DNA of 64,000 nt, from contig NZ_CP012945.1 of the NCBI RefSeq assembly GCF_001402915.1, positions 1,436,001 through 1,500,000 on the forward strand, given 5' to 3'. The position numbers and the translations under genes are program-made. Position 1 is the stretch's first letter; each line of letters starts with the position of its first letter. The notes below the pieces were generated by a model. It was not told where the DNA came from, did no database searches, and saw only the letters and a program-made list of their open reading frames with translations. Positions 21,238-49,459 of this stretch are shown here, one piece after another. This DNA is from Devosia sp. A16. GTDB taxonomy: Bacteria; Pseudomonadota; Alphaproteobacteria; Rhizobiales; Devosiaceae.

Positions 21238-22062
21238 ATGCGCATTATCGATACCCATCTGCACCTGGTGCACATGGATCGCTTCACCTACCCTTGGCTC
21301 GAGGGCGGCGGGGCACTGAACAGAGCATGGCCAGCCGAAGCCTATGCGGCTGAAGCCCGGGAGCTCGGCATCGAGGCGGCGTTGCACATGGAGGTGGACG
21401 TCGCCGAACCTGACATGGAGGCCGAAACCCGCCACGCGCTCGATGTGCATCCACTGGTGGTCGGCGCCATCGCCGCCTGTCGTCCCGAGAGCCCGGATTT
21501 CCCGGCCTATCTCGATCGCCTCGCGGCATTGAAGGGCGTCAGGGGCTTCCGCCGCATCCTTCACACCTCGCCGGACGAATTGAGCCGGGGCGAGTTGTTC
21601 CGTTCCAACCTCCGCCGCCTCGCCGACAAGCACCTGCCCTTCGACCTCTGCGTGCTCGGTAAGCAACTGCCGGTCGGCCGCGAACTGGTCGAAAGCTGCC
21701 CCGAGGTGCAGTTCGTGCTCGATCATTGCGGCATCCCGGACGTGGCGGCCAAGGCGCTCGACCCATGGCGACGCGAGATCGCGGCGTTGGCGGCTTTGCC
21801 CAATGTAGCCGCCAAGATTTCCGGCATCGTCGCCTATGCCGGCCCCGACTGGACCGCCGCCGACCTCCGCCCCTTCGTCGACCACATCATCGAGTGCTTC
21901 GGCTGGGATCGCGTCGTCTGGGGGTCGGACTATCCGGTGCTGACGCTGACCGCCGATCTCACGCGCTGGGTCAATGCCTCCCGGGAGATCGTCGCCGGCG
22001 CCAGCCCCGACGAGCAGGCGAAACTGTTCCACCGCAACGCCGAGCGCATCTACCGCATCTGA
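21238..22062 (+). CDS. Amidohydrolase-superfamily hydrolase, probable sugar-acid lactonase
   Basis: This TIM-barrel metal hydrolase of the COG3618 group (L-fuconolactonase, L-rhamnono-lactonase and pyrone-dicarboxylate lactonase relatives) has 274 residues. It starts MRIIDTHLHLVHM with the metal-binding HxH (THLHL). It continues with FVLDHCGIPD (His on strand 6) and WGSDYPVLTL (the Asp on strand 8), all typical of the group. Opening an aldonolactone to the acid is the likely reaction. Its TGA stop lies inside a CTGATATATCAG palindrome at 22059-22070. It is followed by the oxidoreductase gene after 81 bases. No specific sugar can be assigned; context suggests a 6-deoxy-sugar. Confidence 0.78.
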   Translation: MRIIDTHLHLVHMDRFTYPWLEGGGALNRAWPAEAYAAEARELGIEAALHMEVDVAEPDMEAETRHALDVHPLVVGAIAACRPESPDFPAYLDRLAALKGVRGFRRILHTSPDELSRGELFRSNLRRLADKHLPFDLCVLGKQLPVGRELVESCPEVQFVLDHCGIPDVAAKALDPWRREIAALAALPNVAAKISGIVAYAGPDWTAADLRPFVDHIIECFGWDRVVWGSDYPVLTLTADLTRWVNASREIVAGASPDEQAKLFHRNAERIYRI

Positions 22063-22070
22063 TATATCAG
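22059..22070. promoter_or_regulatory. GntR-type operator CTGATATATCAG (site A)
   Basis: This perfect 12-bp palindrome lies 74 bases before the GTG start of the oxidoreductase gene. The same 12 bases occur at 33144 and 40496, always at the head of a transport or catabolic unit. Here the motif overlaps and supplies the TGA stop of the amidohydrolase. Probable site for one of the FCD-type GntR regulators at 38.9-40.5 kb. Confidence 0.78.
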
Positions 22071-22085
22071 CGTTGCTCCAGCGGC

Positions 22086-26834: not shown

Positions 26835-28730
26835 CTACCCCTCCCGCCCCAACAACGGTGTCGGCCCATCCGCCGCACGCACCCAGGGCGTGTCATAACT
26901 CGGCGCATGGGCGAAGCGCCGCATCCCCAGCGTCAGCCGCGCCGTCGCGCCCGCCCCAAGCTTCACCGTAACCCACCGCCCGCCGACCGCCACCGGCGCG
27001 GCATCGCTCAGTTGCACGGACGTGATGTCGTGCTCCCCGAACACCCCGCCCTGGATCACCACTTCCGCCGCATGCACCGCGTCGGTGTTCACCAGCGTCA
27101 GCGTCGCGCCATCGTGCGTGAGGCCATCGACCAGCGCCGCGACGCCCTGCGGCAGCCCCGGGCGTTTGCCGGCCGCATCGAAATAGCGGAACCGCGCCAC
27201 CTGCAACCCGCCATGATAGACATGCATCGGGCCGCCCAGCGTCAGCTGGGTCAGCGCCTCCACGACCATCGGCGTCAACTGCTGCCACATGTGGATGGTC
27301 ATCGACTCCCGATAGTGATCCATCGTCTCCGGATCGTTCTCGGCCTTGCGATAACTGGCGATCTGCTCGGTGATGGTCTTGAGGTCGGCCCTCAGCACCT
27401 CTTCCGGATAGGTCGGATATTTGCCGCGCATGAACTTGAACCACTGCGCGGTGTTGCCGTTGAAGCCCATATGGCCGCCATTGGTCTTGCCGTAGCCGTG
27501 ATAGTCAGGGTTCACTTTGTCGAACAGCTCGCCGGCCCAGCCGCGTTCGGCCCGCTCCGCGTCCTCCTCGGCCGTCGAGACGTTCCACAGGTACACCCCG
27601 TACATCGGATGGCAGCGGCGATAGTCGCGCCAGCCTTCGTCATAGTGCCGGTTCGGCACCAGTTGCTGGCCGCCCTCCTCGCGCCTGAGCCCCCACAGCA
27701 TGTCGAGCTGCGAACGCGCCAGCTTGAGATGCGCCATATCGCCGGTAAGGACCGCCGCATTGACTCCGGAAACGCAGAGCGGTTCGAGCAGCGAGAACGA
27801 GCCGTGCGGCCAGCGCCAGCCGTAGTAACCGCCCCACCACTTGCCCTCGTTGTATTCGCCGATCTCGCCTGAGAGACCGATGTTGTCGGGCGTGATCCCG
27901 CCATTCCTTGCGGTGCGCTCCTCCCAGGCCGCGAGATAGTCGAGCACCCAGGCCCGGTATTTCTCCTCGCCGGTATAGGCGAAGGCGTGGGTCATCAACG
28001 AGGTGGCGCCGAGGTTGAGCGGCACGTCGCCGCGCGACTGCCGCTGGTTGATGCGGCTCAGGATTTCCGCATAGGTCGCATTGTCCGACCACGGCGTCTT
28101 CATGCCGTATCGGTCGATCCCCGGCAGGTCTTCGAAAGGCGGCAGATAGTCGTCGAGGATTTCGCGATGCGTCGACCAATCCTCCGCCGTCTGGGTGAAG
28201 CGCGGGCCCCGGCTGCCGGTGATGGGCGAGCGGATCAGCCGCTTCTCGGCATCCCAGTTCTGCGCCTCGGCGTCCTCGCCATTGTAGAAGCCGGCAAAGC
28301 GCCGGGTCCGCTGGCGGTCCTTGGGCACGGCGGGGTCGGCGAGCCCGAAGAAGTAGAAGAACAGGTTGCTCTCGCCGTGGTGCATCCAGTCGTAATAGGC
28401 GTCGTACTCGCGGTGGATCTGCCCGTATTCGGTCCACTGCCAGGTGATGCCGTCCCAGATGGTGCGCGAACGTTTGTAGACTTCCTCGGAGCCGCCCAGC
28501 GCGTAGAACAGCGGCATGTTCATGAACCCCTCATAGGGGTCGTCCGAACCATCCATGCCCGGCCAGCGATCGCGCCAGATCAGCGTGCCGTCGGCCCGCG
28601 TGTAGCGGTCGGCGAACTCGATCGCCGCCGCATCCAGCACCGCGAAGATCTGTCGCTGCAGCAGCGCCCATTCGGGCAAGGGGAGGATATCGCCCGCCGC
28701 GATGGACGGCAGGATTGGGGCGCTGCTCAT
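26835..28730 (-). CDS. Uncharacterised 631-residue protein, possible carbohydrate-active enzyme
   Basis: I do not recognise the family with certainty. The sequence is rich in aromatic residues and His (WQWTEYGQIHREYDAYYDWMHH, EYNEGKWWGGYYGWRWPHG, YHGYGKTNGGHMGFNG), in long helical stretches of the kind seen in (alpha/alpha)-barrel glycoside hydrolases and lyases, and ends in a ~100-residue beta-rich domain. There is no signal peptide, so it should act in the cytoplasm, perhaps on imported oligosaccharides. It is the last gene of a CUT1 importer operon, five bases after the ATPase stop. The glycan-processing role is inference from fold impression and context only. Confidence 0.5.
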   Translation of the reverse strand: MSSAPILPSIAAGDILPLPEWALLQRQIFAVLDAAAIEFADRYTRADGTLIWRDRWPGMDGSDDPYEGFMNMPLFYALGGSEEVYKRSRTIWDGITWQWTEYGQIHREYDAYYDWMHHGESNLFFYFFGLADPAVPKDRQRTRRFAGFYNGEDAEAQNWDAEKRLIRSPITGSRGPRFTQTAEDWSTHREILDDYLPPFEDLPGIDRYGMKTPWSDNATYAEILSRINQRQSRGDVPLNLGATSLMTHAFAYTGEEKYRAWVLDYLAAWEERTARNGGITPDNIGLSGEIGEYNEGKWWGGYYGWRWPHGSFSLLEPLCVSGVNAAVLTGDMAHLKLARSQLDMLWGLRREEGGQQLVPNRHYDEGWRDYRRCHPMYGVYLWNVSTAEEDAERAERGWAGELFDKVNPDYHGYGKTNGGHMGFNGNTAQWFKFMRGKYPTYPEEVLRADLKTITEQIASYRKAENDPETMDHYRESMTIHMWQQLTPMVVEALTQLTLGGPMHVYHGGLQVARFRYFDAAGKRPGLPQGVAALVDGLTHDGATLTLVNTDAVHAAEVVIQGGVFGEHDITSVQLSDAAPVAVGGRWVTVKLGAGATARLTLGMRRFAHAPSYDTPWVRAADGPTPLLGREG

Positions 28731-33106: not shown

Positions 33107-33143
33107 GTGTCTCTCCTCCCTGATGATAGCTCAGTCATACAAT

Positions 33144-33155
33144 CTGATATATCAG
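33144..33155. promoter_or_regulatory. GntR-type operator CTGATATATCAG (site B)
   Basis: Identical to sites A and C over all 12 bases. It lies 38 bases upstream of the importer 1 binding-protein ATG and overlaps the TGA stop (33152-33154) of the enolase-superfamily gene before it, the same stop-codon overlap as site A. This position lets it control importer 1 independently of the upstream importer 2 operon. Confidence 0.8.
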
Positions 33156-34306
33156 TGCCATGGTACCTCAGCCCCGCGCGGCGTCAACCGCTCCGTGACT
33201 GCGACCTTCGTCAGGGCCGTCTCATCGAGTTTCTTGAAGTCGAACTCGTAGCCGATGCCCGGCGCGTCGCTGACCGTCAGGTTGCCGTCGACGATCGAGA
33301 GCGGCCCGAGCTTGTCGAGGCCTTTGATCTGGTCCTCGTTCATCACCAACTGCTCGTAATAGTCGTTGTTCGAGATGGCGGCGCAGATCTGCGCATTCTC
33401 GAGCCCCATGCCGTGCACCTGGGCCCGCATGCCGTGGCTTTCCGAGAGGTGCGCCACCTTCATCGAGCCGGTGAAGCCGCCCTTGTAGAAGGTCGAGACG
33501 CGCGTCATGTCGAGCGCCTTGTTCTCGATCCAGGTCGCCATGTTGCCATGCACGCCATCCGAGGTTTCGGCGGCGAGGATCGGAATATCGAGCTTCTCGC
33601 AGAGCTTGGTGTAGCTGCCGAGGTGGAACTCACGCATCGGCTCCTCGTACCAGAGGAAGCCGAGATCCTGGATCGCCTTGCCGAACTCCAGCGCGTTCAC
33701 ATAGTCCCAGCCGGCCGAACCGTCGAACATCAGGTCCGCGTCGGGACCCACCCACTTGCGTAGGTTCTTGCAGAGCTCGATGTCGCGCTTCACCGGGCCG
33801 CCCCAGGCATGCAGCTTGAACGCCTTGAAGCCGACGTCGCGGCTCATCTTGATGTAGCGCTCGTACTCTTCCATCGTCGGCCAGGTGACCGTCGAGGCAT
33901 AGGCCGGCACCACCCGGTCGTCGCCGCCCAGCATCTGGTAGATCGGCATCTTGGCGTGCTGGGATTTCACGTCCCAGCACAGCATGTCGAGCATGCCGAG
34001 CGAGCGCATATGGAACTCTTCGATGCGATCGAGCTCCCAGATCAGCCGCCACATCCGCTCGGTCAACAGCGGGTTCTCGCCGATGAATTCGTGGTAACGC
34101 CGGCGCACCAGGTCGATAACCGCCTCGCCGCGCCCCATCTCGATGACGCCGTTGATGCCGGCGTCGGTCTCCATGCGGATCACCGCCTTGTGCGGCTTCG
34201 AGCCGCGCGGGATGTCACCATGCGAGCCGGGAATGCCGTCGCGCCAGATGAATTTCGGCCCCGGCTCGTGCTCGACCAGCCATGCCGTGAATCCCGTGAT
34301 CTGCAT
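33152..34306 (-). CDS. Enolase-superfamily sugar-acid dehydratase (mandelate racemase type) 1
   Basis: This is a mandelate-racemase-like enzyme of 384 residues that would abstract the proton alpha to a carboxylate, most often dehydrating an aldonic acid. The N-terminal capping domain is followed by the barrel with K164-x-H166 (FKLHAWGG). Metal ligands are D195 (LMFDGSAGW), E221/E222 (LWYEEPM) and E247 (ILAAETSDG), and the D267/H298 pair is near LDMTRVS and QVHGMG. The retained His-Asp pair marks the MR subgroup. It is the last gene of the importer 2 operon. Exact substrate unknown; rhamnonate, galactonate and gluconate are candidates. Confidence 0.85.
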   Translation of the reverse strand: MQITGFTAWLVEHEPGPKFIWRDGIPGSHGDIPRGSKPHKAVIRMETDAGINGVIEMGRGEAVIDLVRRRYHEFIGENPLLTERMWRLIWELDRIEEFHMRSLGMLDMLCWDVKSQHAKMPIYQMLGGDDRVVPAYASTVTWPTMEEYERYIKMSRDVGFKAFKLHAWGGPVKRDIELCKNLRKWVGPDADLMFDGSAGWDYVNALEFGKAIQDLGFLWYEEPMREFHLGSYTKLCEKLDIPILAAETSDGVHGNMATWIENKALDMTRVSTFYKGGFTGSMKVAHLSESHGMRAQVHGMGLENAQICAAISNNDYYEQLVMNEDQIKGLDKLGPLSIVDGNLTVSDAPGIGYEFDFKKLDETALTKVAVTERLTPRGAEVPWH

Positions 34307-37574: not shown

Positions 37575-38690
37575 CTATCTGCCGACGGCCGATGCCATGA
37601 CGGCGCCCGCTGCGTCGAAGACATGCACCCGGTCGGCCCTGAGCCCGACCTGGACCTCCTGCCCCGGCTCGAGGTCGGAATGGCCCATCACCTGCACGGT
37701 GATGACCTCCGGCGTCCCCCCATCGAGATAGGCGTAAGTGATATTGCCGAGCCGCTCGACCGACTCGACCCTGGCCGGCAGCGCGGTCAGCCCGGCGGGC
37801 ACTGCGGCGCCCCTGGCGACCACCTCCAGCGTTTCCGGCCGCACCCCGAGCGTCACGGCGTCGCCGACGCTGGCGCCGCGCGCCGCGAGGTCGACTTTCG
37901 TTCCGCTGCCGGTTTCGAGGCCCATGGTCGCCTTGCCGTCGGCGGTGCTCAGCACCTTGGCCGGCAGCAGGTTCATCTTGGGCGAGCCGATGAAGCCGGC
38001 GACGAACAGGTTGTTGGGGCGCGCATAGAGATCGAGCGGTGGCCCGACCTGCTGGATACGGCCGTTATCGAGCGCCACGATGCGGTCGGCGAGCGTCATC
38101 GCTTCGACCTGGTCGTGCGTCACATAGATCATCGTGGTGCCGAGCTCACGGTGGAGGCGCTCGATCTCGAGCCGCATCTGCACCCGCAGCGCCGCATCGA
38201 GATTCGATAGCGGCTCGTCGAACAGGAATACTTTCGGGTTGCGCACGATGGCGCGACCGATGGCGACGCGCTGACGCTGCCCGCCCGACAGCTGCGCCGG
38301 GGATCGGCCGAGCAGCTCGTTGAGCCTGAGGATTCGCGCCGCTTCCTTGACCCGCTTGTCGATCTCGTCCCGACTGAGGCGCGCCAGCTTCAGGTTGAAG
38401 GCGATGTTGTCGTAGACGTTCATGTGTGGGTAGAGCGCGTAGGACTGGAACACCATGGCGATGCCCCGCTCCGACGGCTCGGCGAAGGTCACGTCCTCGC
38501 CGTCGATCAGGATATCGCCATCGCTCACCGTCTCGAGGCCGGCGATCATCCGCAGAAGCGTCGACTTGCCCGAACCCGAGGCGCCGACGAACACCACGAA
38601 CTCGCCCTTGTCGATGCTCAGATCGACGCCCTTGATGACGTCGACCGTGCCGAACGACTTGCGCACATTCCTGAGCTCGACCGCGGCCAC
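37575..38690 (-). CDS. ABC sugar importer ATPase (UgpC/MalK family), importer 2
   Basis: A 371-residue ATPase with Walker A GASGSGKST, VFQSYALYPHMNVYDNIAF, signature LSGGQRQRVAIGRAIVR, Walker B VFLFDEPLSNLD, H-loop YVTHDQVEA and a regulatory C-terminal domain (LGVRPETLE). Unusually for these operons it is the first gene, followed by the binding protein, the two permeases and the dehydratase. The upstream region carries two GntR-like half-palindromes 21 bases apart (38748 and 38769). It may also energise importers 3 and 4, which lack an ATPase gene. Confidence 0.94.
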   Translation of the reverse strand: MAAVELRNVRKSFGTVDVIKGVDLSIDKGEFVVFVGASGSGKSTLLRMIAGLETVSDGDILIDGEDVTFAEPSERGIAMVFQSYALYPHMNVYDNIAFNLKLARLSRDEIDKRVKEAARILRLNELLGRSPAQLSGGQRQRVAIGRAIVRNPKVFLFDEPLSNLDAALRVQMRLEIERLHRELGTTMIYVTHDQVEAMTLADRIVALDNGRIQQVGPPLDLYARPNNLFVAGFIGSPKMNLLPAKVLSTADGKATMGLETGSGTKVDLAARGASVGDAVTLGVRPETLEVVARGAAVPAGLTALPARVESVERLGNITYAYLDGGTPEVITVQVMGHSDLEPGQEVQVGLRADRVHVFDAAGAVMASAVGR

Positions 38691-39761: not shown

Positions 39762-40475
39762 CTACACAAACATCCCCAGATGCCGCTGCAGCGCTGCGTT
39801 GAAATGCGCCACCAGGGCCGCCTCGGCCCGGTCGGGGTCGCGCGCTTCGCACGCCTCGATGATTTCGAGGTGTTCACGGATCGAGCGTTGCGCCAGCGGG
39901 GCTGTGAGCTTGCGGTCGAGCCGGACCAGGCGCAGGTAGGTGTGCATGCGCCGGTAACTGGTCTCGATCAGGGCGTTCCTCAGGATCGCGATGATCGAGT
40001 TGTGCAGCAGGCTCTCCAGCGCCTCGAGCTCTTCCATCGTCGCCATGGTGAGCCCCGACGTCTCGATCTGCTTTGATACGGCGCGGTGCCGGTCGCCCAG
40101 CTCGCCGATCAGGTCTTCGTCGCCCAGTTCGGCAAAAGTGCGCACGGCCGCCCGCTCGATGATGGTGCGGAACTGGTAGGTCGATTTGGTGAGCTCGAGT
40201 CCCGGCTTGACGAACTGGATGCCGGAGCGCGGATGGATGGTGAGGATGCCCTCGACTTCCAGCGTCCGCAGCGCATCGCGCAACGGCGCCACCGGAATGC
40301 CGAGCAGCTTCACCAGATCGTTCTGCGACACGAAAGCGCCGGCCGGCAGCCGTCGGTCGAACAGGTTTTCCAGGATCCGTGTGTAGGCCAGATCGCTCAA
40401 CCGCCCGGCCGGTTGAGACTCGCTCGGGCCGGTCACGGCGTCCTCATTCACAGCCACTTGTGCGTCCGCTTTCAT
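39762..40475 (-). CDS. GntR-family regulator, FCD (FadR-type) ligand domain, number 2
   Basis: A 237-residue regulator with a winged helix (about 25-95: LPAGAFVSQNDLVKLLGIPV, APLRDALRTLEVEGILTI) and an FCD domain with His at LLHNSIIAIL, IREHLEIIEACEARD and LVAHFNAAL. The perfect palindrome CTGATATATCAG lies 21 bases upstream of its start, in the divergent promoter shared with the 40.5-49.5 kb operon. It is therefore the best candidate for the regulator of all three perfect sites, with autoregulation. The ligand is unknown; a sugar-acid intermediate is plausible. Confidence 0.9.
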   Translation of the reverse strand: MKADAQVAVNEDAVTGPSESQPAGRLSDLAYTRILENLFDRRLPAGAFVSQNDLVKLLGIPVAPLRDALRTLEVEGILTIHPRSGIQFVKPGLELTKSTYQFRTIIERAAVRTFAELGDEDLIGELGDRHRAVSKQIETSGLTMATMEELEALESLLHNSIIAILRNALIETSYRRMHTYLRLVRLDRKLTAPLAQRSIREHLEIIEACEARDPDRAEAALVAHFNAALQRHLGMFV

Positions 40476-40494
40476 TGCTCTATTAGCATCACCG

Positions 40495-40508
40495 TCTGAT
40501 ATATCAGA
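40495..40508. promoter_or_regulatory. GntR-type operator TCTGATATATCAGA (site C)
   Basis: A perfect 14-bp palindrome containing the 12-base core of sites A and B. It lies in the 66-base divergent gap, 21 bases from the GntR start (40475) and 34 bases from the dehydratase start (40542), ideal for dual control. Confidence 0.85.
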
Positions 40509-40541
40509 TGTTCATGTTAGTCGATCAGAGATCGCCAGCCT

Positions 40542-41693
40542 ATGCGCATTTCGGAATTCCGCATCACCCGTTTCCAGTTTGCCCGCGACCGCGTGATCGG
40601 CGACAGCCAGGTCCGCGCCGACGACGTGAACATAGCGGCGCTCGAACTGATTGCCGATACCGGCGCGGTCGGGTTGGGGTTTATCCAGACCTTGTTTTTC
40701 CCGCTGCCCGATCAGGCCGAGATCGAGCGGGTCTTCCGCTCGGAAGTCTGGCCCGGCCTCGAAGGCCAGCCACCCGCCGGGCTGGTGCATCGCGTCGGCC
40801 GGCCGCGCGGCGGCAACCAGCGCGCCACCACCCTCCCCTTCCATGAAGCGCTGCAGGTCGCGCTCTGGGATCTCGCCGCCAAGCAGGTGAACCTGCCGCT
40901 GCACCGGCTGCTGGGCAGCCGTCGCGACAAGGTCGAGGCCTATGCCTCGGGCCTCGATTTCCACCTTTCGGACGATGACTTCGCGAAATTCTTCGGCCAT
41001 GCCGACGCGATCGGCTACCGCGCCTTCAAGATCAAGGTCGGCAGCCCGGATTTCGACTGGGACCTCAACCGCCTGAACATTCTCAAAGAGGTGGTCCGCA
41101 AGGACGCCCTGGTGATGATCGACGCCAACGAGGCCTGGGGCGCCAAGGAGGCGCTGGTGAAGCTCACCGCCATCCGCGATGCCGGCCACGAACTGCTCTG
41201 GGTCGAAGACCCGATCCTGCGCACCGACTATGCCGGGCTCAGGATGCTGAAGGACGCGGCCAACTGGACGCTGATCAACTCCGGCGAATATCTCGACGCC
41301 CACGGCAAGCGCCTGCTGATGGAACAGGACGCGACCGATATCCTCAACGTCCATGGCCAGGTCACCGACGTGATGCGCATCGGCTGGCTCGCCGCCGATC
41401 GCGGCATTCCGGTCAGCCTCGGCAACACCTTCCTCGAGGTGGGCATCCACATGGCCTGTGCGCTCCCCGAAGTGCAGTGGCTCGAATACTCGTTTCAGAA
41501 CTTCGACCACCTGGTCGACCAGCCGGTCGAGATCCGTGACGGCTGGGCCTATGCCCCCGATCGCCCCGGCCACGGCCTGGTGCTGAACGAAACCGCCCGC
41601 CGCGAGTGGGCCCGCCCCAACCTCTTGCCGCGCTCCGAGCTCGGCGAAGCCCCGTTCAATCCGCGCGTCGCCCAGGCGCTGCGCGCGGCCTGA
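40542..41693 (+). CDS. Enolase-superfamily sugar-acid dehydratase 2
   Basis: A 383-residue mandelate-racemase/muconate-cycloisomerase-like protein. The barrel shows K163-x-K165 (AFKIKVG), D194 (VMIDANEAW), E222 (WVEDPIL) and E249 (INSGEYL). On the late strands LGNTFLEVGIHM has Asn where racemases place the catalytic His, so the KxK lysine is probably the main base. Dehydration of an aldonic or uronic acid is likely. It is only distantly similar to the dehydratase at 33152 and so probably acts on another isomer. First gene of a long plus-strand operon under site C. Confidence 0.85.
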   Translation: MRISEFRITRFQFARDRVIGDSQVRADDVNIAALELIADTGAVGLGFIQTLFFPLPDQAEIERVFRSEVWPGLEGQPPAGLVHRVGRPRGGNQRATTLPFHEALQVALWDLAAKQVNLPLHRLLGSRRDKVEAYASGLDFHLSDDDFAKFFGHADAIGYRAFKIKVGSPDFDWDLNRLNILKEVVRKDALVMIDANEAWGAKEALVKLTAIRDAGHELLWVEDPILRTDYAGLRMLKDAANWTLINSGEYLDAHGKRLLMEQDATDILNVHGQVTDVMRIGWLAADRGIPVSLGNTFLEVGIHMACALPEVQWLEYSFQNFDHLVDQPVEIRDGWAYAPDRPGHGLVLNETARREWARPNLLPRSELGEAPFNPRVAQALRAA

Positions 41694-41733
41694 AGTCCAA
41701 GCGAGTTCTGTCATCCAGGGAGGAGACATCCAA

Positions 41734-43005
41734 ATGAATCTTCTGCGCACCACCGTGGCGCTCTCGGCGATCCTCGTCGCCGGCGCCGCTCTTGCCCAGG
41801 ACGGTGCCATCACCGTCTGGGCCGACGCCACCCGCCAGCCGGCGGTCGAAGCGTTCATCGCCGCCCATCCGGAAGTGCCGGTCAACTTGGTGCTCGACGA
41901 TGGCTCGTCGGGCGCCTCGGGCACCTTCCAGACCAAGATCAGCCTCGCCGACCAGGCCAATGAAGGCTGGCCGGACGTGGTGTTCTCCACCCAGAACAAC
42001 GACGCCGCCTGGGCCGCCCGCGAGAACAACGGCGCCCAGGCCTTCGCCCAGGTGCTGAACGAGGGCTTCCTCGACCAGGCCTTCCTCGATGGCTTCACCC
42101 CGGGCGCACTCGACCCGGTAACCGTCGACGGCAAGGTCTACGGCCTACGCAACGACCTCGCGCCGGTGCTGTTCTGGTACAACAAGACCCTGCTCGATCA
42201 GTTCGGCTACGCCGCCCCGACCACCTGGGAAGAGTACCAAGCGCTGGGCGACAAACTCGCCGCCGAGCACCCCGGCTACTTCCTCGGCGCCATCGGCGAC
42301 GCCTTCCAGGGCCCGTACATCTATTACTGGAGCGGCGAAGCGCCGATCTTCCAGCTCGAAGGCGAAACCTTCAAGTCCGACACTTCGGCGCCGAACGCGG
42401 TGAAGGTCTCCAACCTCATCGACCACATGGTCGCCAACAAGACGCTGACGCTCGACAGCGTGTTCGGCGCCAATTTCGTCGCCAGCGCGGCCAATCTCGT
42501 CGCCATCCCCGGTCCCGCCTGGTACTCGGGCGCACTGTTCCAGAACCCCGGTGGCGTCAATGCCAAGGCCGGCGACTGGGTCGCCGCGCCGCCACTGAAA
42601 TGGGCCGATGGCGCTGCGGTCACCGGTAATGTCGGCGGCGGCGTCTGGTACGCGTCGAGCCACACGAAAAACCCCGAGGCGGTGAAGACCTTCCTCAAGT
42701 TCGTCATCAGCGACACCAAGGTCGCGGGCACCGGCGGCCTGCCGGCCTATCAGGCGGCGGCCGATGCCTGGCTCGACGCGCAGGCGGCGAGCGGCTTCTA
42801 CGCCGGCGACTTCAAGGCTGCGATCCAGACGGCCGCTTCGAGCGTCTGGAACGGCTGGGGCTACCCCAACTTCTCGCCCGAAACCGCCTGGGCCAAGGTC
42901 GTCACCCCCGGCCTCGCCGCCGGCAAGACCATGACCGACCTCGCCGCCGACTGGCAGCAGGAAATGAAGAACGAAGCCCAGGTCGTCGGCTACACGGTCG
43001 AGTGA
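41734..43005 (+). CDS. ABC sugar solute-binding protein (family 1), importer 3
   Basis: A 423-residue periplasmic receptor. The leader MNLLRTTVALSAILVAGAAL ends at AQDGAI. The mature protein opens ITVWADATRQPAVEAFIAAH and has VVFSTQNNDAAWAAREN, LFWYNKTLLDQFGYAAPTTW and GNVGGGVWYASSHTKNPEAV. A GGGAGGAG ribosome-binding site precedes the ATG. It resembles the importer 2 receptor. A repeat with strong hairpins separates it from its permeases. Confidence 0.92.
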   Translation: MNLLRTTVALSAILVAGAALAQDGAITVWADATRQPAVEAFIAAHPEVPVNLVLDDGSSGASGTFQTKISLADQANEGWPDVVFSTQNNDAAWAARENNGAQAFAQVLNEGFLDQAFLDGFTPGALDPVTVDGKVYGLRNDLAPVLFWYNKTLLDQFGYAAPTTWEEYQALGDKLAAEHPGYFLGAIGDAFQGPYIYYWSGEAPIFQLEGETFKSDTSAPNAVKVSNLIDHMVANKTLTLDSVFGANFVASAANLVAIPGPAWYSGALFQNPGGVNAKAGDWVAAPPLKWADGAAVTGNVGGGVWYASSHTKNPEAVKTFLKFVISDTKVAGTGGLPAYQAAADAWLDAQAASGFYAGDFKAAIQTAASSVWNGWGYPNFSPETAWAKVVTPGLAAGKTMTDLAADWQQEMKNEAQVVGYTVE

Positions 43006-43012
43006 TCCCTTC

Positions 43013-43146
43013 ACCTCTCCCTTGGGGGAGAGGTCGACGCGAAGCGTCGGGTGAGGGGGCCTTGCGGAACGCGCAGTAAGGCCCCCTCACCTCAGCTTCG
43101 CTAGGCGGCCAAGCCGCCAAGCTTCGCTATCCTCTCCCCCAAGGGC
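43013..43146. repeat. Inverted-repeat element between receptor and permease genes of importer 3
   Basis: CACCTCTCCCTTGGGGGAGA, CGACGCGAAGCGTCG, the arms GGTGAGGGGGCCTTGC..AAGGCCCCCTCACC and CTCTCCCCCAAGGGCGAG make a nested structure. The module GCTTCGCTAGGCGGCCAAGC is shared with 26451-26834, and GGGTGAGGGGGCC with 9600-9752. Here the element is inside an operon, so it probably reduces read-through into the permease genes. Confidence 0.75.
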
Positions 43147-43211
43147 GAGGAGGCGTTTCGGGCGACGCGCGTTGCCCAAGGATGAACGTCTAGTGCCTGG
43201 AGCCGCCTGAA

Positions 43212-44138
43212 GTGAGCACGATCGAACATAGCGCTGCCACTGTCGCCCTCGAACGCCCCAGGAAGGGCATGAGCGTCGAGCGCGCCCAGGGCCGCATCGG
43301 CGTGCTGTTCGCCACCCCCTACACGCTGTTCCTCATCGCCTTCGGCATCCTCCCGGCGCTCTACGCCATTTATCTCGCCTTCACCAGGAAGGGCGCGTTT
43401 GTCGGCTTCGACAATTTCCTCAAGGTGTTCAAGGACTACCGTTTCTGGCCCGCCGTCGAGCATGTCGGCATCTTCATCGTCGTCTGGCTGGTGCTGCTGG
43501 TCGTGCTGGTGGTGACCCTCGCCATCCTCGTTCACTCGATCGGCTTGCGCTGGTTCTCGGGCGCCATGCGCTTCATCTACTATATCCCCGGCGCGCTGGC
43601 CGGCGCCTCGAGCGTCATGCTCTGGCTGTTCGTTCTAGATCCCACCGTCAGCCCGGTGTCGTGGCTGCTGCAGGCATTGGGGATCGAGAGCTTCGTTGGC
43701 GCCGTTGACGCCAGCCGCCTGCCGATCGTCCTCGCGGTGATCGCCTTCTGGACCGGCGCCGGCGGCTGGATCGTCATCATGTACGGGGCGCTCAACAACA
43801 TCAGTAAGGACGTGATCGAAGCCGCCCGCGTCGATGGCGCCGGCCCGGTGCGTATCGCCTGGTCGATCCAGATCCCGCTGATGCGCAAGTGGATCGCCTA
43901 CATGGTGATCATGAGCTTTGCCGGCGGCACCCAGCTCTTCGTCGAGCCCCGCGTCTTGGCGCAGGCCAGCCGCGGCGTAGTGGGGCAGGACTATTCACTG
44001 AACCAGCTCGCCTTCCTCTACGCCTTCAAGCAGAACGATTTCAATGGCTCGGCGGCGATCTCGCTGGTGCTGCTGGCCGTCGCTGTCGCCCTTTCCATCT
44101 ACTTCGTCTTCAAGGGTGGCCTGTTTGAGCGCGCCTAA
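43212..44138 (+). CDS. ABC sugar permease, MalF type, importer 3
   Basis: A 308-residue permease with six membrane segments, EAA loop VIEAARVDGAGPVRIAWSIQ and the LFVEPRVLAQASRG region shared with importer 2. The start is GTG at 43212 (MSTIEHSAATV). The next gene begins inside its 3' end. No ATPase gene is present in this operon, so an ATPase encoded elsewhere, probably at 37575 or 28736, must energise it. Confidence 0.92.
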   Translation: MSTIEHSAATVALERPRKGMSVERAQGRIGVLFATPYTLFLIAFGILPALYAIYLAFTRKGAFVGFDNFLKVFKDYRFWPAVEHVGIFIVVWLVLLVVLVVTLAILVHSIGLRWFSGAMRFIYYIPGALAGASSVMLWLFVLDPTVSPVSWLLQALGIESFVGAVDASRLPIVLAVIAFWTGAGGWIVIMYGALNNISKDVIEAARVDGAGPVRIAWSIQIPLMRKWIAYMVIMSFAGGTQLFVEPRVLAQASRGVVGQDYSLNQLAFLYAFKQNDFNGSAAISLVLLAVAVALSIYFVFKGGLFERA

Positions 44139-45039
44139 CTCGGAAATCGTCGGCACCCGCTTCAAGGACCTGACACCGGCTGCCTGGCTGGGTCGCGCCT
44201 TCGCCGTGCTGGTCCTCATCGTCTTTGCGCTGTTCTTCGTCGTGCCGCTCGTCTGGCTGCTGATCGCGCCGACGAAGACCGATCGCCAGCTGCTGCTCGA
44301 GGCGCCGTTCGCGCTGGGCGACATGGGCACGCTGCTTGCCAACTGGCAGAGTCTGATGACCTTCCAGGGCGGGCTGATCTGGACCTGGATCGGCAATTCG
44401 GTGTTCTATTGCGTCGCCGCCCTGGTGATCACTCTCGCGATCTCGATTCCCGCCGGCTACGCCCTGGCGATGACCGAGTTCCGTGGCCGCAGGCTGCTGC
44501 TGGTGGTGACGCTGATCGTCATGCTGATCCCCTCCACCGCCCTGGTGCTGCCGATCTTTCTCGAGCTGAGCGCGGTGCGGCTGATCGGCAATCCGCTCTC
44601 GGCCATCCTGCCCTTCTCGTTCTACCCGTTCGGCGTCTACCTCACCTACATCTACTTCTCGACGGCGGTGTCGCGCGACCTGCTCTCGGCGGCGCGCCTC
44701 GACGGGGCAAGCGAGTGGCAGGTGTTCATGAAGATCGCCATGCCGCTGAGCACGCCGGTGATCGCGCTGGTCGGCTTCTTCAGCTTCACCGGCAACTGGA
44801 ACAACTATTTCCTGCCCTATGTGACGCTGCCCGGCCGCAAGGCGCCGATCCAGGTCGGCCTCGCCGAGCTGCTGTCGAACGTGCCGGCCTTCAATCCCAC
44901 CAACGCCGCTTCGACCACCATCACGCTGTCGGCGCTGGCGCTCGCGACGCTGCTCGCCATCGCCCCGGTGCTGCTCGTCTTCCTGTTCGCGCAGCGCTAC
45001 CTCGTATCCGGCATGACTGCCGGCGGCACCAAGGAGTAA
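44125..45039 (+). CDS. ABC sugar permease, MalG type, importer 3 (TTG start)
   Basis: A ~304-residue permease with six membrane segments, PSTALVLPIFLELSAVRLIG, FYPFGVYLTYIYFSTAVSRD, EAA loop LLSAARLDGASEWQVFMKIA and tail VSGMTAGGTKE. I choose TTG at 44125, which follows AAGGGTGG at a suitable spacing and overlaps the previous gene's last codons; GTG at 44116 is the alternative. The longer frame upstream lies in the previous gene and is a shadow. Closely similar to the MalG-type subunit of importer 2. Confidence 0.88.
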   Translation: MSAPNSEIVGTRFKDLTPAAWLGRAFAVLVLIVFALFFVVPLVWLLIAPTKTDRQLLLEAPFALGDMGTLLANWQSLMTFQGGLIWTWIGNSVFYCVAALVITLAISIPAGYALAMTEFRGRRLLLVVTLIVMLIPSTALVLPIFLELSAVRLIGNPLSAILPFSFYPFGVYLTYIYFSTAVSRDLLSAARLDGASEWQVFMKIAMPLSTPVIALVGFFSFTGNWNNYFLPYVTLPGRKAPIQVGLAELLSNVPAFNPTNAASTTITLSALALATLLAIAPVLLVFLFAQRYLVSGMTAGGTKE

Positions 45040-45042
45040 GTC

Positions 45043-45375
45043 ATGGTCCAGCGCATGGGCATGGTGATCGGCGTGAAGCCGGAAAAGCTGGCCGAGTACA
45101 AGCGGCTGCACGCCGAACCGTGGGCGGAGATGGATGCGGCGCTGAGCGCGGCGAACATCCGCAACTATTCGATCTACCTGCGCGAGCCCGAAATGCTGCT
45201 GTTCGGCTACTGGGAATATACCGGTTCCGACTACGAGGCCGACATGCGGGTGCTGGGCGACAAGGCGATCACCAAAGAGTGGCTGGCGCTCACCGACCCG
45301 TGCCAGGCGCCGCTGAAGACCGCCGCCGCAGGCGAGTGGTGGAGCATGATGCCCGAAATCTACCATCTCGACTGA
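45043..45375 (+). CDS. L-rhamnose mutarotase family protein (RhaM/RhaU-like)
   Basis: A 110-residue dimeric ferredoxin-like protein expected to interconvert the alpha and beta anomers of L-rhamnose or a similar 6-deoxy-hexose. MVIGVKPEKLAEYKRLHAEP with H23 (the catalytic His position), NIRNYSIYLREPEMLLFGYW, and the terminal GEWWSMMPEIYHLD with the paired Trp are the family marks. Length matches RhaM (~104). It lies three bases after the permease stop and is the strongest hint that the imported sugar is L-rhamnose-like. Related proteins may serve other deoxy-sugars. Confidence 0.87.
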   Translation: MVQRMGMVIGVKPEKLAEYKRLHAEPWAEMDAALSAANIRNYSIYLREPEMLLFGYWEYTGSDYEADMRVLGDKAITKEWLALTDPCQAPLKTAAAGEWWSMMPEIYHLD

Positions 45376-45385
45376 GGACAAGCTC

Positions 45386-46564
45386 ATGGTTGAACTGAAC
45401 GGCCGGACCTACACCCGGCGCGAAATCGCCGAGCGCGCCGGCATGCTGAGCCAGTTCGCCAGCGTGCGGCTGATGGAACTCGGCGACGGCGTCGAGCGCG
45501 GCATCCGCATGCTCGAGTTCCGCACCGGCTCGGGCCTCCGCTTCACCGTTTTGGTCGACCGGGCGCTCGACATCGCCGACTGCGAGTTCAAGGGCCAGGC
45601 GATCGGCTGGAACTCGCCGGCCGGCTTCCGCCACCCGGGCCTGCATGAATATGAAGGCGAAGGCGGTCTCGCCTGGGCCCGCTCATTCTCAGGTCTCTTG
45701 GTTACCTGCGGGCTCGACCACATCCTGTTCATGAACGAGGTGCCGGCCGACACCTATGTCTATGGCCCCAAGCCGACGGTCAGCCACTCGCTGCATGGCC
45801 GCATCGGCACCATCCCGGCAAAGCTCACCGGCTATGGCGAAGAGTGGCGCGGCGACGAGTGCGTGCTGTGGGCCGAGGGCATCGTGCAGCAGTCGGCGGT
45901 GTTCGGCGAAGACCTGCACCTCATCCGCCGCATCGAGGCAGATGTCGGCGGCAATGACATCCGGATCAGCGATCGGGTCGTCAACCATGGCTTCTACAAG
46001 ACGCCGCACATGTACTGCTACCACATCAATGTCGGCCACCCGGTCCTCGACGAAGGCTCGCGCTACCTCGCGCCGATCAAGGACGTGGTCTGGGCCGCCC
46101 ATGCCGGCGAGGCCTATCGCAAGCAGGGCGTCGGCTACCGCACGCTGAGTGCCCCAAAGCTCGATTTCCACGAGCAGGTCTGGCAACACGAACTCGGCGC
46201 CGATGACCAAGGCCAGCAGTTCGTTGCCTTGGTCAACGATCGCCTCGGGCTCGGCTTCGAGGTTGCCACCGCCAAGGCGCAGTTCCCCTGCCTCTACGAA
46301 TGGCAGAACCTGCAGGCCGGACAGTATGCGCTCGGCATCGAGCCCTCCACCAACCACGTGCTCGGCAACAACGCCGCGCGCCAGCGCGGCGAGATGATCT
46401 GGCTGCAGCATGGCGAGGAGAAGCGCTACGACAGCACCTTCCGGGTGCTCGACGGCGCCGACGACATCGCCGCCAGCGAAGCGCGCATCCGCGCCATCTC
46501 CGGCCAGCCCGAGGACGAGTATCCGGCCCCCTCAGGCAACCACCTGAAGATCGGGGGCCGCTGA
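45386..46564 (+). CDS. DUF4432 family protein, aldose-1-epimerase-like fold
   Basis: A 392-residue protein of the DUF4432 family, related to galactose mutarotases. Features are IRMLEFRTGSGLRFTVLVDR, ALDIADCEFKGQAIGWNSPA, LVTCGLDH, HSLHGRIGTIPAKL, MYCYHINVGHPVLDEGSRYL and the late LGIEPSTNHVLGN. It presumably binds a sugar in its beta-sandwich. Two mutarotase-like genes side by side (this and RhaM-like) is unusual. It may act on a different intermediate, such as a ketose or sugar acid. Its stop overlaps the SDR start (TGATG). Confidence 0.82.
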   Translation: MVELNGRTYTRREIAERAGMLSQFASVRLMELGDGVERGIRMLEFRTGSGLRFTVLVDRALDIADCEFKGQAIGWNSPAGFRHPGLHEYEGEGGLAWARSFSGLLVTCGLDHILFMNEVPADTYVYGPKPTVSHSLHGRIGTIPAKLTGYGEEWRGDECVLWAEGIVQQSAVFGEDLHLIRRIEADVGGNDIRISDRVVNHGFYKTPHMYCYHINVGHPVLDEGSRYLAPIKDVVWAAHAGEAYRKQGVGYRTLSAPKLDFHEQVWQHELGADDQGQQFVALVNDRLGLGFEVATAKAQFPCLYEWQNLQAGQYALGIEPSTNHVLGNNAARQRGEMIWLQHGEEKRYDSTFRVLDGADDIAASEARIRAISGQPEDEYPAPSGNHLKIGGR

Positions 46565-47328
46565 TGGGTGCTGATCGCTTCGGCTCGCTCGAGGGCAAGG
46601 CCATCCTCTATACCGGCGCCGCCGGCGGCCTGGGGCTGGAGACGACGCTCGAACTGCTGCGCTCGGGTGCAAAGGTTGTCGCCATCGACAATGATGCGAG
46701 AAAGGTTGCAGCGCTGCTCGATGCGGCCGGCGGCCTTGCGGGCCTGACCGTAGAGAGGCTCGATCTCGCCGATCTCACCGGACTGCGCGCTGGACTCGAG
46801 AACCTTTCGGCCGAGCTCGGCGGCTTCGACATCGTCATCAACAACGCCGCGATCTATCCCTCGAAACCCTTCGAGGACTACAGCATCGAAGAGATGCAGC
46901 TGGTACAGCGCATCAATGTCGATGCCGGCATTGTCTGCGTCCAGGTGGCCCTGCCCCATATGAAGGCGGCAAAGCGCGGCCGCATCATCAACATCTCCTC
47001 GGTGACCATTTCGGGCGGCTGGTCGGACCTCACCCCCTATGTGCAATCGAAGATGGCGCTGGTCGGTCTCACCCGCTCCTGGGCGCGTGAGTTCGGCAGG
47101 CATGGCATCACCGTCAATGCGGTGGCGCCAGGCGCCTTCCCCACCGACGCCGAAAAGATCCATCCCGACCTCGCAGCCTATGAGAAGCGCATCTACGAGG
47201 CGCAGGCGCTGCAACGGCGCGGCGCCCCTGCCGACATCGCCAACATCCTGATGTTCCTCGCCTCGGACGCAGCGTCGTTCATTACCGGCCAGACCATCCA
47301 CGTGGATGGCGGCTGGTACATGCATTGA
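46564..47328 (+). CDS. Short-chain dehydrogenase/reductase, probable NAD-dependent sugar dehydrogenase
   Basis: A 254-residue classical SDR. The cofactor motif TGAAGGLG (17-24) is followed by an acidic D42 after strand 2 (VVAIDND), which favours NAD(H). NNAA (93-96), S145, Y159 and K163 (YVQSK) complete the active site. In context it probably oxidises L-rhamnose, L-fucose or a similar sugar at C1 to the lactone, or a 2-keto-3-deoxy acid later in the route. I choose ATG at 46564 because it overlaps the DUF4432 stop; longer frames run through that gene. Confidence 0.88.
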   Translation: MGADRFGSLEGKAILYTGAAGGLGLETTLELLRSGAKVVAIDNDARKVAALLDAAGGLAGLTVERLDLADLTGLRAGLENLSAELGGFDIVINNAAIYPSKPFEDYSIEEMQLVQRINVDAGIVCVQVALPHMKAAKRGRIINISSVTISGGWSDLTPYVQSKMALVGLTRSWAREFGRHGITVNAVAPGAFPTDAEKIHPDLAAYEKRIYEAQALQRRGAPADIANILMFLASDAASFITGQTIHVDGGWYMH

Positions 47329-47405
47329 TGCAAACGATGACTGATAGAGACGGCCCCGTCTGCTTCAGTTTCCCACCACCTGTCATCTCCTCGGAATCCT
47401 GACCC

Positions 47406-48599
47406 ATGGGCATCCTCTCCGGCTACCGCGTCCTCGATTGCTCCATTGCCATGGCCGGCCCGTTCGCGGCGCAGCGGCTGGGCGATCTCGGCGCCGATGT
47501 GGTGAAGGTCGAGCCGGTGACCGGCGAGTGGCAGCGCCATACCGCCGCCGGCGGGGCGCGCGGCAACAAGGTCAACGTCTCCTTCCTGTCGCTCAACCGC
47601 AACAAGCGCTCGCTCGCCGTCGACCTCAAGGACCCGGACGGCAAGGCCGTGCTGCTCGAACTGGTGAAGACCGCCGACGTGTTCCTGCAGAACTATCGGC
47701 CGGGCGTCGCGAAGCGCCTCGGGGTGGACTACGAGACCCTGTCGAAGATCAATCCGCGCCTCGTCTACGTCTCGATCTCCGGCTACGGCGAGGATGGCCC
47801 CTACCTCAACCGCCCCGGCCAGGACCTGGTGCTACAGGGCATGTCGGGCGCCATGCTGTCGGCCGGCCGCGCCGGCGAGCCGCCCAACGCGGCGGGGCAG
47901 TACCTGGTCGACGGCATCACCGCCTACACTGCGTTCGAGGGGGCGCTGGCGGCGCTGCTGCATCGCGAGCGCACCGGCGAGGGCCAACTGGTGCAGGTGA
48001 ACATGCTCGACGCCATCACCACCATCCAGATGCAGGAACTCTCGGTGTTCACCGTCGGTCACAAGCCGCAGGTGCGCTCGGCCGAGCCGCATGCCCATGT
48101 CTACATCCGCGCGCCCTACGGCGCCTTCGCGACGTCCGACGGCTTCATCATCGTCGCCTTTCCCAAGCTCGCCAATCTCGGCCAGACCATCGGCGAGCCG
48201 AGCTTCCTCGACATGGACGACGAGGTCGACACCTGGACCCGGCGCGACGAGATCTTTGCCAAGACCCGTGACCGGCTGAAGACCAAGACCACCGCCGAGT
48301 GGCTGGAGCTGTTGCGCGCCGCCGACATCTGGTGCGGCCCGGTCTATGGCTATGCCGACCTCGTCGAGGACGAGCAGATCAAGCACAACGGCACCTTCGT
48401 CGAGTACGTGCACCCGACCGAGGGCCACGTGAAGACCCCAGGCTTCCCGATCAGGTTTTCGAAGACTCCTTCGACCGTCGAACGCGGCGCGCCCGTCGTC
48501 GGCCAGCACAGCCGCGACGTGCTGCGCGAAGCCGGTTTCGACGATACGGCGATCGAACAATTGCTGGCCAAGGGCGCAGTGGCGGAGAACGGCATATGA
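47406..48599 (+). CDS. Family III CoA-transferase (CaiB/BaiF), canonical Asp present
   Basis: A 397-residue CoA-transferase paralogous to the one at 23747. It shows LDCSIAMAGPFAAQRLGDLG, VVKVEPVTGEWQR, LNRNKRSLAVDLKDPDG, FLQNYRPGVAKRLGVDYE and SISGYGEDGPY. The catalytic turn is VQVNMLDAI with D202, unlike Glu205 of the other copy. A 77-base gap without obvious motifs separates it from the SDR gene. Its presence in a sugar importer operon suggests that a sugar-derived acid is activated to a CoA thioester. Donor and acceptor are unknown. Confidence 0.9.
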   Translation: MGILSGYRVLDCSIAMAGPFAAQRLGDLGADVVKVEPVTGEWQRHTAAGGARGNKVNVSFLSLNRNKRSLAVDLKDPDGKAVLLELVKTADVFLQNYRPGVAKRLGVDYETLSKINPRLVYVSISGYGEDGPYLNRPGQDLVLQGMSGAMLSAGRAGEPPNAAGQYLVDGITAYTAFEGALAALLHRERTGEGQLVQVNMLDAITTIQMQELSVFTVGHKPQVRSAEPHAHVYIRAPYGAFATSDGFIIVAFPKLANLGQTIGEPSFLDMDDEVDTWTRRDEIFAKTRDRLKTKTTAEWLELLRAADIWCGPVYGYADLVEDEQIKHNGTFVEYVHPTEGHVKTPGFPIRFSKTPSTVERGAPVVGQHSRDVLREAGFDDTAIEQLLAKGAVAENGI

Positions 48600-48664
48600 C
48601 CTCTCCGTGATCCTCCCCCGCGGGGCGGGGGAGGGGGACCGGCGAAGCCGGTGGAGGGGGCGGT
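48600..48664. repeat. Short GC-rich inverted repeat between CoA genes
   Basis: ATCCTCCCCCGCGGGGCGGG and GGACCGGCGAAGCCGGTGGA are two adjacent hairpins in the 89-base gap before the enoyl-CoA hydratase gene. They could moderate read-through. Confidence 0.6.
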
Positions 48665-48688
48665 CAGTCTTTCAGTCAGGAATAGGCC

Positions 48689-49459
48689 ATGTCTGAGAAC
48701 ATCCTCGTCGAGCGCGACGGCTTCGTCGGCATCATAACCTTCAATCGGCCGGAAAAGCTCAACGCCATGACGCCGGAAATGGCGGCGGCGCTGGTGGCGG
48801 CGGTCACCGAGTTCAACACCGACGATGCCATCCGGGCGGTGATCCTGACCGGCGCCGGCGAGAAGGCCTTCTCCGCCGGCTCCGATATCAGGACGCTCGA
48901 CGACTACGACAGCGCCTGGAACTTCCGGAACCGGCCCGATTATTGCGACGCCATTCGCGCCCTGCTGAAGCCGTCCATCGCTGCGGTAAACGGCTACGCC
49001 TTCGGCGGCGGACTCGAGACTGCCATGGCCTGTGACATCCGCATCGCCTCGGACAATGCCAGCTTCGCCGCGCCGGAAATCAAGCTCGGCTGGATCGGCG
49101 GCGGCGGCATGGCGGTGAACCTCGCCCATGCCGTCGGCCCCTCCAACGCCGCGCTGATGATCATGACCGGCGATCCCGTTGACGCCGTGACAGCCGAACG
49201 CTGGGGCCTCGTCTCCCGCATCGTAGCGCGCACCGATTTGCTGGCTGAAGCCAAGCGGCTCGCAGCGACCATCGCCTCACGCGCCCCGATTGCCGCCGAG
49301 ACCGCCAAGCTGAACCTCCGCGCCGCCTGGGAACTCTCGATCGCCAACGCCATCAGCTACGAGCGCGACCTGCAGGCGATCTGCTTTGCGACGGAAGATG
49401 CGCGGGAGGGGCGCGCGGCGTTCAAGGCGAAGCGGTCGCCGGTGTTCAAGCGGCGGTAG
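48689..49459 (+). CDS. Enoyl-CoA hydratase/isomerase (crotonase family)
   Basis: A 256-residue crotonase-fold protein. The oxyanion hole is formed by FSAGSDIRTL (about 61-70) and GYAFGGGLE (102-110), with E110 in the first catalytic Glu position and E130 in APEIKLGWIGGG as a candidate second acid/base. The usual Pro after this loop is replaced by Gly. It acts on CoA thioesters in the cytoplasm by hydration, isomerisation or related chemistry. Last gene of the long operon headed by dehydratase 2, and probably acts after the CoA-transferase next to it. Confidence 0.9.
   Translation: MSENILVERDGFVGIITFNRPEKLNAMTPEMAAALVAAVTEFNTDDAIRAVILTGAGEKAFSAGSDIRTLDDYDSAWNFRNRPDYCDAIRALLKPSIAAVNGYAFGGGLETAMACDIRIASDNASFAAPEIKLGWIGGGGMAVNLAHAVGPSNAALMIMTGDPVDAVTAERWGLVSRIVARTDLLAEAKRLAATIASRAPIAAETAKLNLRAAWELSIANAISYERDLQAICFATEDAREGRAAFKAKRSPVFKRR

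Follow-up and report, generated by a model that had tools for sequence, protein, structure and literature searches.

The whole 64,000-nucleotide stretch analyzed here from the genome of the soil bacterium Devosia sp. A16 (the window; contig NZ_CP012945.1, positions 1,436,001 to 1,500,000) contains a nine-gene operon in which genes for sugar import and conversion are followed by those for a family-III CoA-transferase (CoA-T) and a crotonase-type enoyl-CoA hydratase (ECH). In unrelated bacteria, the CoA-T and ECH genes travel with genes of the L-fucose type under the same switch, a pattern that, judged from sequences, points to an undescribed CoA-dependent step in sugar-acid breakdown. All nine genes were confirmed by open reading frame (ORF) calls and Pfam profiles at the place and on the strand given in the preliminary description of this locus, and, as stated there, no aldolase or FAH gene lies within the operon. 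The genes follow each other in this order (coordinates are positions in the window unless given as genome positions):

40542..41693 (+): enolase-superfamily protein (MR_MLE_C) of the 2OZ8 (Mll7089) type, 632 bits to 2oz8
41734..43005 (+): ABC sugar solute-binding protein (SBP), sub-threshold NCBIfam matches to sugar SBPs
43212..44138 (+): ABC sugar permease 1, an ORF that clusters with other ABC permeases
44116..45039 (+): ABC sugar permease 2 (start uncertain, about 44116), an ORF that clusters with other ABC permeases
45043..45375 (+): RhaM-type mutarotase, PF05336, 97 bits
45386..46564 (+): DUF4432, aldose-1-epimerase-like protein, PF14486, 331 bits; 129 bits to 3TY1
46564..47328 (+): NAD-type SDR dehydrogenase (SDR10), PF13561, 188 bits; adjoins DUF4432 in most loci
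47406..48599 (+): CoA-T, family-III (CaiB/BaiF) CoA-transferase, CoA_transf_3, PF02515, 360 bits
48689..49459 (+): ECH, crotonase-type enoyl-CoA hydratase, ECH_1, PF00378, 206 bits

To follow these genes across bacteria, we used 80 loci from named genomes anchored on the enolase-superfamily gene, to which plasmid and genome loci were then added. An ortholog of CoA-T (at least 60% identity) is present in 32 related loci, in 31 of which ECH lies downstream on the same strand, either directly or with one solute-binding-like gene (PBP17) in between; of these 32 loci, 26 contain DUF4432 and 25 contain SDR10. The hosts include Devosia, Rhizobium, Sinorhizobium, Martelella, Pararobbsia, Peristeroidobacter, Sphingomonas, Sphingopyxis, Croceibacterium, Variovorax, Pseudosulfitobacter and a Streptomyces plasmid, and the loci that also contain DUF4432 range from Devosia to Sphingomonas, Variovorax and the Streptomyces plasmid. 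The count of 32 overstates the number of independent events because several close relatives, such as a group of Devosia, are included. Among 385 evenly drawn alphaproteobacterial genomes, only one, that of Devosia sp. A16 itself, has a CoA-T ortholog passing an E value of 1e-130, yet 18 of the 81 loci anchored on the enolase gene have such an ortholog no more than 10 kb away. In Shinella, the row consists of an importer, ECH, an SDR, an SMP-30 lactonase, a PBP gene and CoA-T, and in Azospirillum, of CoA-T, a PBP gene, ECH, a KdaD/XylX-like dehydratase and an aldehyde dehydrogenase; judging from the latter row, CoA-T and ECH occupy the place of an aldonate dehydratase.

The PBP17 proteins (in loci L021, L077, L080 and others) are solute-binding-like proteins with no evident signal peptide that are encoded beside family-III CoA-transferases in two phyla; such a protein could possibly be a sugar-binding or sugar-acyl-CoA-binding subunit.

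The second line of evidence is a conserved palindrome (consensus ATCTGATATATCAGAT) between the enolase-superfamily gene and a divergent gene for a GntR-type regulator. Of the 81 loci, 67 contain a 16-mer that differs from the consensus at no more than 4 positions, mostly 45-48 bp before the enolase start; among 505 control stretches, one does. The position and conservation of the palindrome lead us to infer that it is bound by GntR. The 14-bp core with at most 1 mismatch occurs three times in the 5.03-Mb genome, all inside the window, with about 0.07 copies expected from base composition. The three copies precede the CoA operon, a gene cluster with a second CoA-transferase (hereinafter module A) and an importer operon (SBP5):

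39762..40475 (-): GntR/FCD regulator, divergent from the operon, PF00392 and PF07729; adjoins the enolase gene in most of the 81 related loci
40494..40509: proposed GntR operator GTCTGATATATCAGAT, exact 14-mer core at 40495
22057..22072: second operator copy, 72 bp before the Gfo/Idh gene of module A, core at 22058, 1 mismatch
33142..33157: third operator copy, before the SBP5 ABC operon, core at 33143, 1 mismatch; kept in Devosia relatives
21238..22062 (+): module A amidohydrolase, probable sugar lactonase, PF04909, 177 bits
22144..23208 (+): module A Gfo/Idh/MocA dehydrogenase, PF01408
23205..23750 (+): module A MaoC-like hydratase 1, PF01575
23747..24898 (+): module A second family-III CoA-transferase, 37% identical to that of the operon, PF02515, 343 bits
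24895..26007 (+): module A solute-binding-like protein, no evident signal peptide, PF13416; sole PBP17 homolog in the genome
26007..26450 (+): module A MaoC-like hydratase 2, PF01575, 88 bits
28736..33106 (-): SBP5 ABC importer (SBP, two permeases and ATPase; gene calls and clustering), preceded by the third operator

In total, just three family-III CoA-transferases were detected for this genome, two of them encoded in operator-preceded modules. In sphingomonads, sites of the same motif precede the DUF4432-SDR-CoA-T-ECH operon as well as genes for AKR (aldose dehydrogenase), FAH56 (diketo-acid hydrolase), GH141 and GH95. Because the linkage is kept across classes and into Actinomycetota, and because the GntR operator is common to fucose-type oxidative genes, the CoA-transferase and the crotonase appear to function in a sugar pathway, as originally suggested, and the pair almost certainly belongs to a sugar regulon. 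All genes tested evolve under purifying selection, with dN/dS far below 1; CoA-T is the most constrained among them (dN of 0.006 and dS of 0.24 compared to the nearest relative).

The sugar itself was originally labeled as rhamnose-type, a designation that has no support beyond the RhaM gene, whose product is a sugar mutarotase of a family not specific for fucose or rhamnose and scores 45.8 bits against the cut-off of 99.6 for the NCBIfam L-rhamnose mutarotase equivalog (TIGR02625). We therefore rejected rhamnose as the specific sugar. The GH95, GH141, AKR and fuconolactonase-like neighbors, several of them under the same operator, argue instead for an L-fucose-type context, and L-fucose, L-galactose or a derivative is the more likely substrate. 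Indeed, genes for GH95, GH141 and annotated alpha-L-fucosidases are located near CoA-module loci in Sphingomonas, Streptomyces and Croceibacterium. The oxidative (non-phosphorylative) L-fucose pathway consists of a mutarotase, a dehydrogenase, fuconolactonase, fuconate dehydratase, 2-keto-3-deoxyfuconate (KDF) dehydrogenase and a FAH hydrolase. The system described here shares with it RhaM, a probable lactonase, an enolase-superfamily protein, an SDR and a sugar ABC importer and, in related loci, AKR, SDR22, FAH56, GH95 and GH141, but differs in the addition of DUF4432, a CoA-transferase and a crotonase or MaoC protein, in the lack of a FAH gene in the operon and in an enolase-type protein devoid of the usual His-Asp pair.

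The latter protein was initially called a dehydratase. Its KxK motif and metal ligands are invariant in 83 of 83 orthologs, whereas the canonical catalytic His-Asp pair of acid-sugar dehydratases is missing: at the positions where L-talarate/galactarate dehydratase has Asp and His, each of the 83 has His/Asn and Asn instead. Given its genomic context, this 2OZ8-type protein is nevertheless a probable sugar-acid dehydratase.

The CoA-T and ECH proteins retain the residues that we take to be catalytic, namely the active-site Asp of CoA-T, which aligns with those of SUGCT and YfdW and is conserved among homologs, and both Glu residues of ECH, which are kept in its homologs as well. One of the closest known parallels is carnitine metabolism, where CaiB and CaiD cycle CoA from the product to the next acid molecule. 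In both cases, a family-III CoA-transferase is encoded beside a crotonase with both catalytic Glu residues and without a dedicated thiolase, an arrangement that fits CoA recycling; however, the genes here are accompanied by sugar genes rather than carnitine genes, and their products score far below the equivalog cut-offs (142.9 bits against 413 for CaiB and 161 against 500 for CaiD).

With respect to substrate, direction, order of steps and CoA recycling, we infer the following scheme. The operon would form one branch of a regulon that is controlled by GntR and serves a sugar of the L-fucose type (L-fucose, a close relative or a derivative), which would be imported by the ABC transporters of the operon SBP and SBP5. 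RhaM and DUF4432 would set its anomeric form, the SDR and/or the Gfo/Idh enzyme would oxidize it, and the amidohydrolase would open the resulting lactone. CoA-T would then pass CoA onto the sugar acid and the crotonase would remove (or add) water between C2 and C3 of the thioester, after which CoA-T would return CoA to the next acid molecule in the manner of CaiB/CaiD, so that the two enzymes together would function as a sugar-acid dehydratase that cycles CoA. Hydrolases or dehydratases with genes outside the operon would then take over the keto-deoxy acid. Module A would perform the equivalent reactions, with MaoC-fold hydratases, on an isomer of the other C3 configuration. On the Streptomyces plasmid, an orthologous CoA-T is found with MaoC and no ECH nearby, which points to the single reaction shared by the two folds, that is, (de)hydration of a CoA ester. 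CaiB/CaiD-like CoA-cycling dehydratase chemistry acting on a sugar acid is the simplest interpretation, which we place a little short of an even chance. The full version, in which CoA-T charges an aldonate and exchangeable crotonase-fold and MaoC-fold hydratases, serving opposite C3 configurations within one GntR regulon, dehydrate the thioester, is a distinctly more tentative proposal; with the same reservation, such a system could represent a third chemical solution to sugar-acid dehydration, in addition to the metal-dependent enolase-type and the Fe-S (IlvD/EDD) enzymes.

Aldose dehydrogenase candidates are SDR10 and the co-regulated Gfo/Idh protein; the nearest AKRs encoded by this genome reach only about 40% identity and lack the operator. 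For the lactonase, the candidate is the PF04909 protein of module A, whose relatives in other loci score below the NCBIfam fuconolactonase cut-off; the counterpart of module A in Labrenzia and Nitratireductor is located inside an operon annotated with L-fuconate dehydratase. Although the operon has neither a hydrolase nor an aldolase gene, the genome elsewhere encodes a FAH hydrolase 60% identical to the pathway-type FAH56 (genome positions 1392402-1393253) and, beside a 2-oxoglutarate-semialdehyde-type dehydrogenase gene, a FAH65-like protein. A KdaD/XylX-like gene paired with one for 2-oxoglutarate semialdehyde dehydrogenase is absent from the operon and lies at genome positions 187.7-190.4 kb, without an operator. 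At about 2.56 Mb, there is an enolase-superfamily dehydratase gene of the classical type, together with SDR22-like and RhaM genes.

Several observations weigh against the CoA-cycling dehydratase. The enolase-type protein of the operon could already perform the dehydratase step, and loci L066 and L084, which contain the same enolase gene, encode AKR, lactonase, SDR22 and FAH56, a classical oxidative route of the fucose type that is complete without CoA genes, so that there would seem to be little need for another dehydratase unless the pathway also processes a second sugar. Sphingomonad loci likewise possess SDR22 and, in some cases, FAH56 next to the CoA genes. The occurrence of classical fucose genes together with the CoA genes in several genomes makes it likely that another, related sugar or a decorated fucose is involved. 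Furthermore, in some rhizobia CoA-T-PBP-ECH is separated from DUF4432-SDR and has its own LacI gene, so that a single operon is not the rule; DUF4432 occurs without CoA-T in four Rhizobium genomes; and ECH could equally hydrate its substrate.

In Rhizobiales loci L096-L099, DUF4432 is accompanied by Gfo/Idh, a TIM-barrel isomerase and a sugar ABC importer, with no CoA-T ortholog in the genome; thus, DUF4432 seems to have a role apart from the CoA module.

The position of the CoA step in the pathway may also differ from that first proposed. The preliminary description placed the CoA genes at its end; that they are part of the pathway stands, but the terminal position is unsupported. In Azospirillum and on the Streptomyces plasmid, genes for a KdaD/XylX-like dehydratase and an aldehyde dehydrogenase lie alongside the CoA module, and hence the CoA step may lie upstream. 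These two genes recall Weimberg-type pentose pathways, which comprise the XylX/KdaD dehydratase and 2-oxoglutarate semialdehyde dehydrogenase; in contrast, the known Weimberg routes, to our knowledge, do not involve CoA and rely on IlvD/EDD or enolase-type aldonate dehydratases.

Among the alternatives, a route resembling beta-oxidation fares best, although we consider it unlikely. CoA-T would activate the acid, ECH would hydrate or dehydrate it, SDR10, which adjoins CoA-T in most loci, would oxidize the CoA ester at its beta-hydroxyl group, and the product would be cleaved by a lyase or thiolase whose gene lies elsewhere, as proposed for deoxyribonyl-CoA. Price and colleagues have proposed a CoA-bound route for deoxyribonate in Klebsiella michiganensis that employs a CoA-synthetase, a beta-hydroxyacyl-CoA dehydrogenase and a thiolase, with genes for a CoA-transferase and a glycerate kinase nearby (PMC6365646), and sphingomonad loci also hold a kinase and a glyoxylate/hydroxypyruvate-reductase-like gene. 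However, the tblastn search with two thiolase queries yielded no match in the window and, among the 32 CoA-T loci, a match in only one, 5 kb from the core, and the SDR10-DUF4432 pair occurs apart from CoA-T in L020 and L021. The two systems share a sugar acid that is proposed to be metabolized as a CoA thioester and nearby kinase and CoA-transferase genes, but differ in that a CoA-transferase and a hydratase are the enzymes at hand here.

It is also rather improbable that the role of CoA-T and ECH is to process a side product or a substituent, such as an acid that comes from a decorated sugar or is made after cleavage, instead of the sugar-acid backbone. The ability of CoA-T-PBP-ECH to stand apart with its own regulator, the second copy beside an acid importer in one genome and the coexistence with classical fucose-type genes in sphingomonads are all compatible with such a role, but the tight linkage to DUF4432-SDR10, and to an SDR and a lactonase in Shinella, argues against it, and no gene for an esterase or another acid-releasing enzyme is consistently present.

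The second copy mentioned above (L113, in a Rhizobiales genome) has the order CoA-T-ECH-PBP-FAH65 and adjoins a TRAP acid importer and MaoC, suggesting that the CoA module can also be fed by an imported acid.

Replacement of the FAH hydrolase by the CoA pair, whereby a 2,4-diketo acid would be cleaved as a CoA ester by the crotonase, has little probability. Under this possibility, the lack of FAH in the Devosia operon and the presence of SDR10 with the CoA pair where other loci have SDR22 and FAH56 would be readily accounted for; however, L077 and L081 each contain both FAH56 and the CoA pair, in the latter case with FAH56 under the same operator, the crotonase retains both hydratase-typical Glu residues, and the Devosia genome does contain the FAH56-like gene. 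Finally, that the CoA genes are an accidental read-through tail serving unrelated acids is very improbable and was rejected: gaps of 77 nt before CoA-T and 89 nt before ECH, the latter with a GC-rich palindrome, are in line with it, but the linkage is kept across phyla and the operator is shared with the second CoA-transferase module.

Returning to the CoA-cycling dehydratase, the expectation that a CoA-dependent route would be new has to be narrowed. The involvement of CoA in sugar-acid catabolism is not new in itself because CoA-bound deoxyribonate has already been proposed (PMC6365646); in the literature searched, this is the sole relevant precedent, and we found no paper on a transferase-plus-hydratase version in a fucose-type regulon. 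If the proposed chemistry is correct, many plant-associated and alga-associated bacteria (Rhizobiales, sphingomonads, Variovorax, Azospirillum and Streptomyces) would hold an overlooked CoA-dependent branch of fucose-type catabolism, and functions would be assigned to DUF4432, to the crotonase and MaoC pair and to the solute-binding-like protein that has no evident signal peptide. With its nine-gene operon and its defined operator, the system lends itself to direct testing.

Within the operon, the intergenic gaps span 3-206 nt, with some overlaps, and neither terminator-like sites nor promoter signals exceeded chance. The GC-rich palindromic stretch between the CoA-T and ECH genes, at 48611-48665, is possibly a repeated intergenic element. 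The operator-preceded SBP5 operon ends with a 631-aa ORF (26835-28730, minus strand) that has no Pfam match. No ABC ATPase gene is present inside the plus-strand operon, and the nearest one is divergent:

37575..38690 (-): ABC ATPase, possible partner of the permeases of the operon; clusters with the sugar ABC ATPases of other loci

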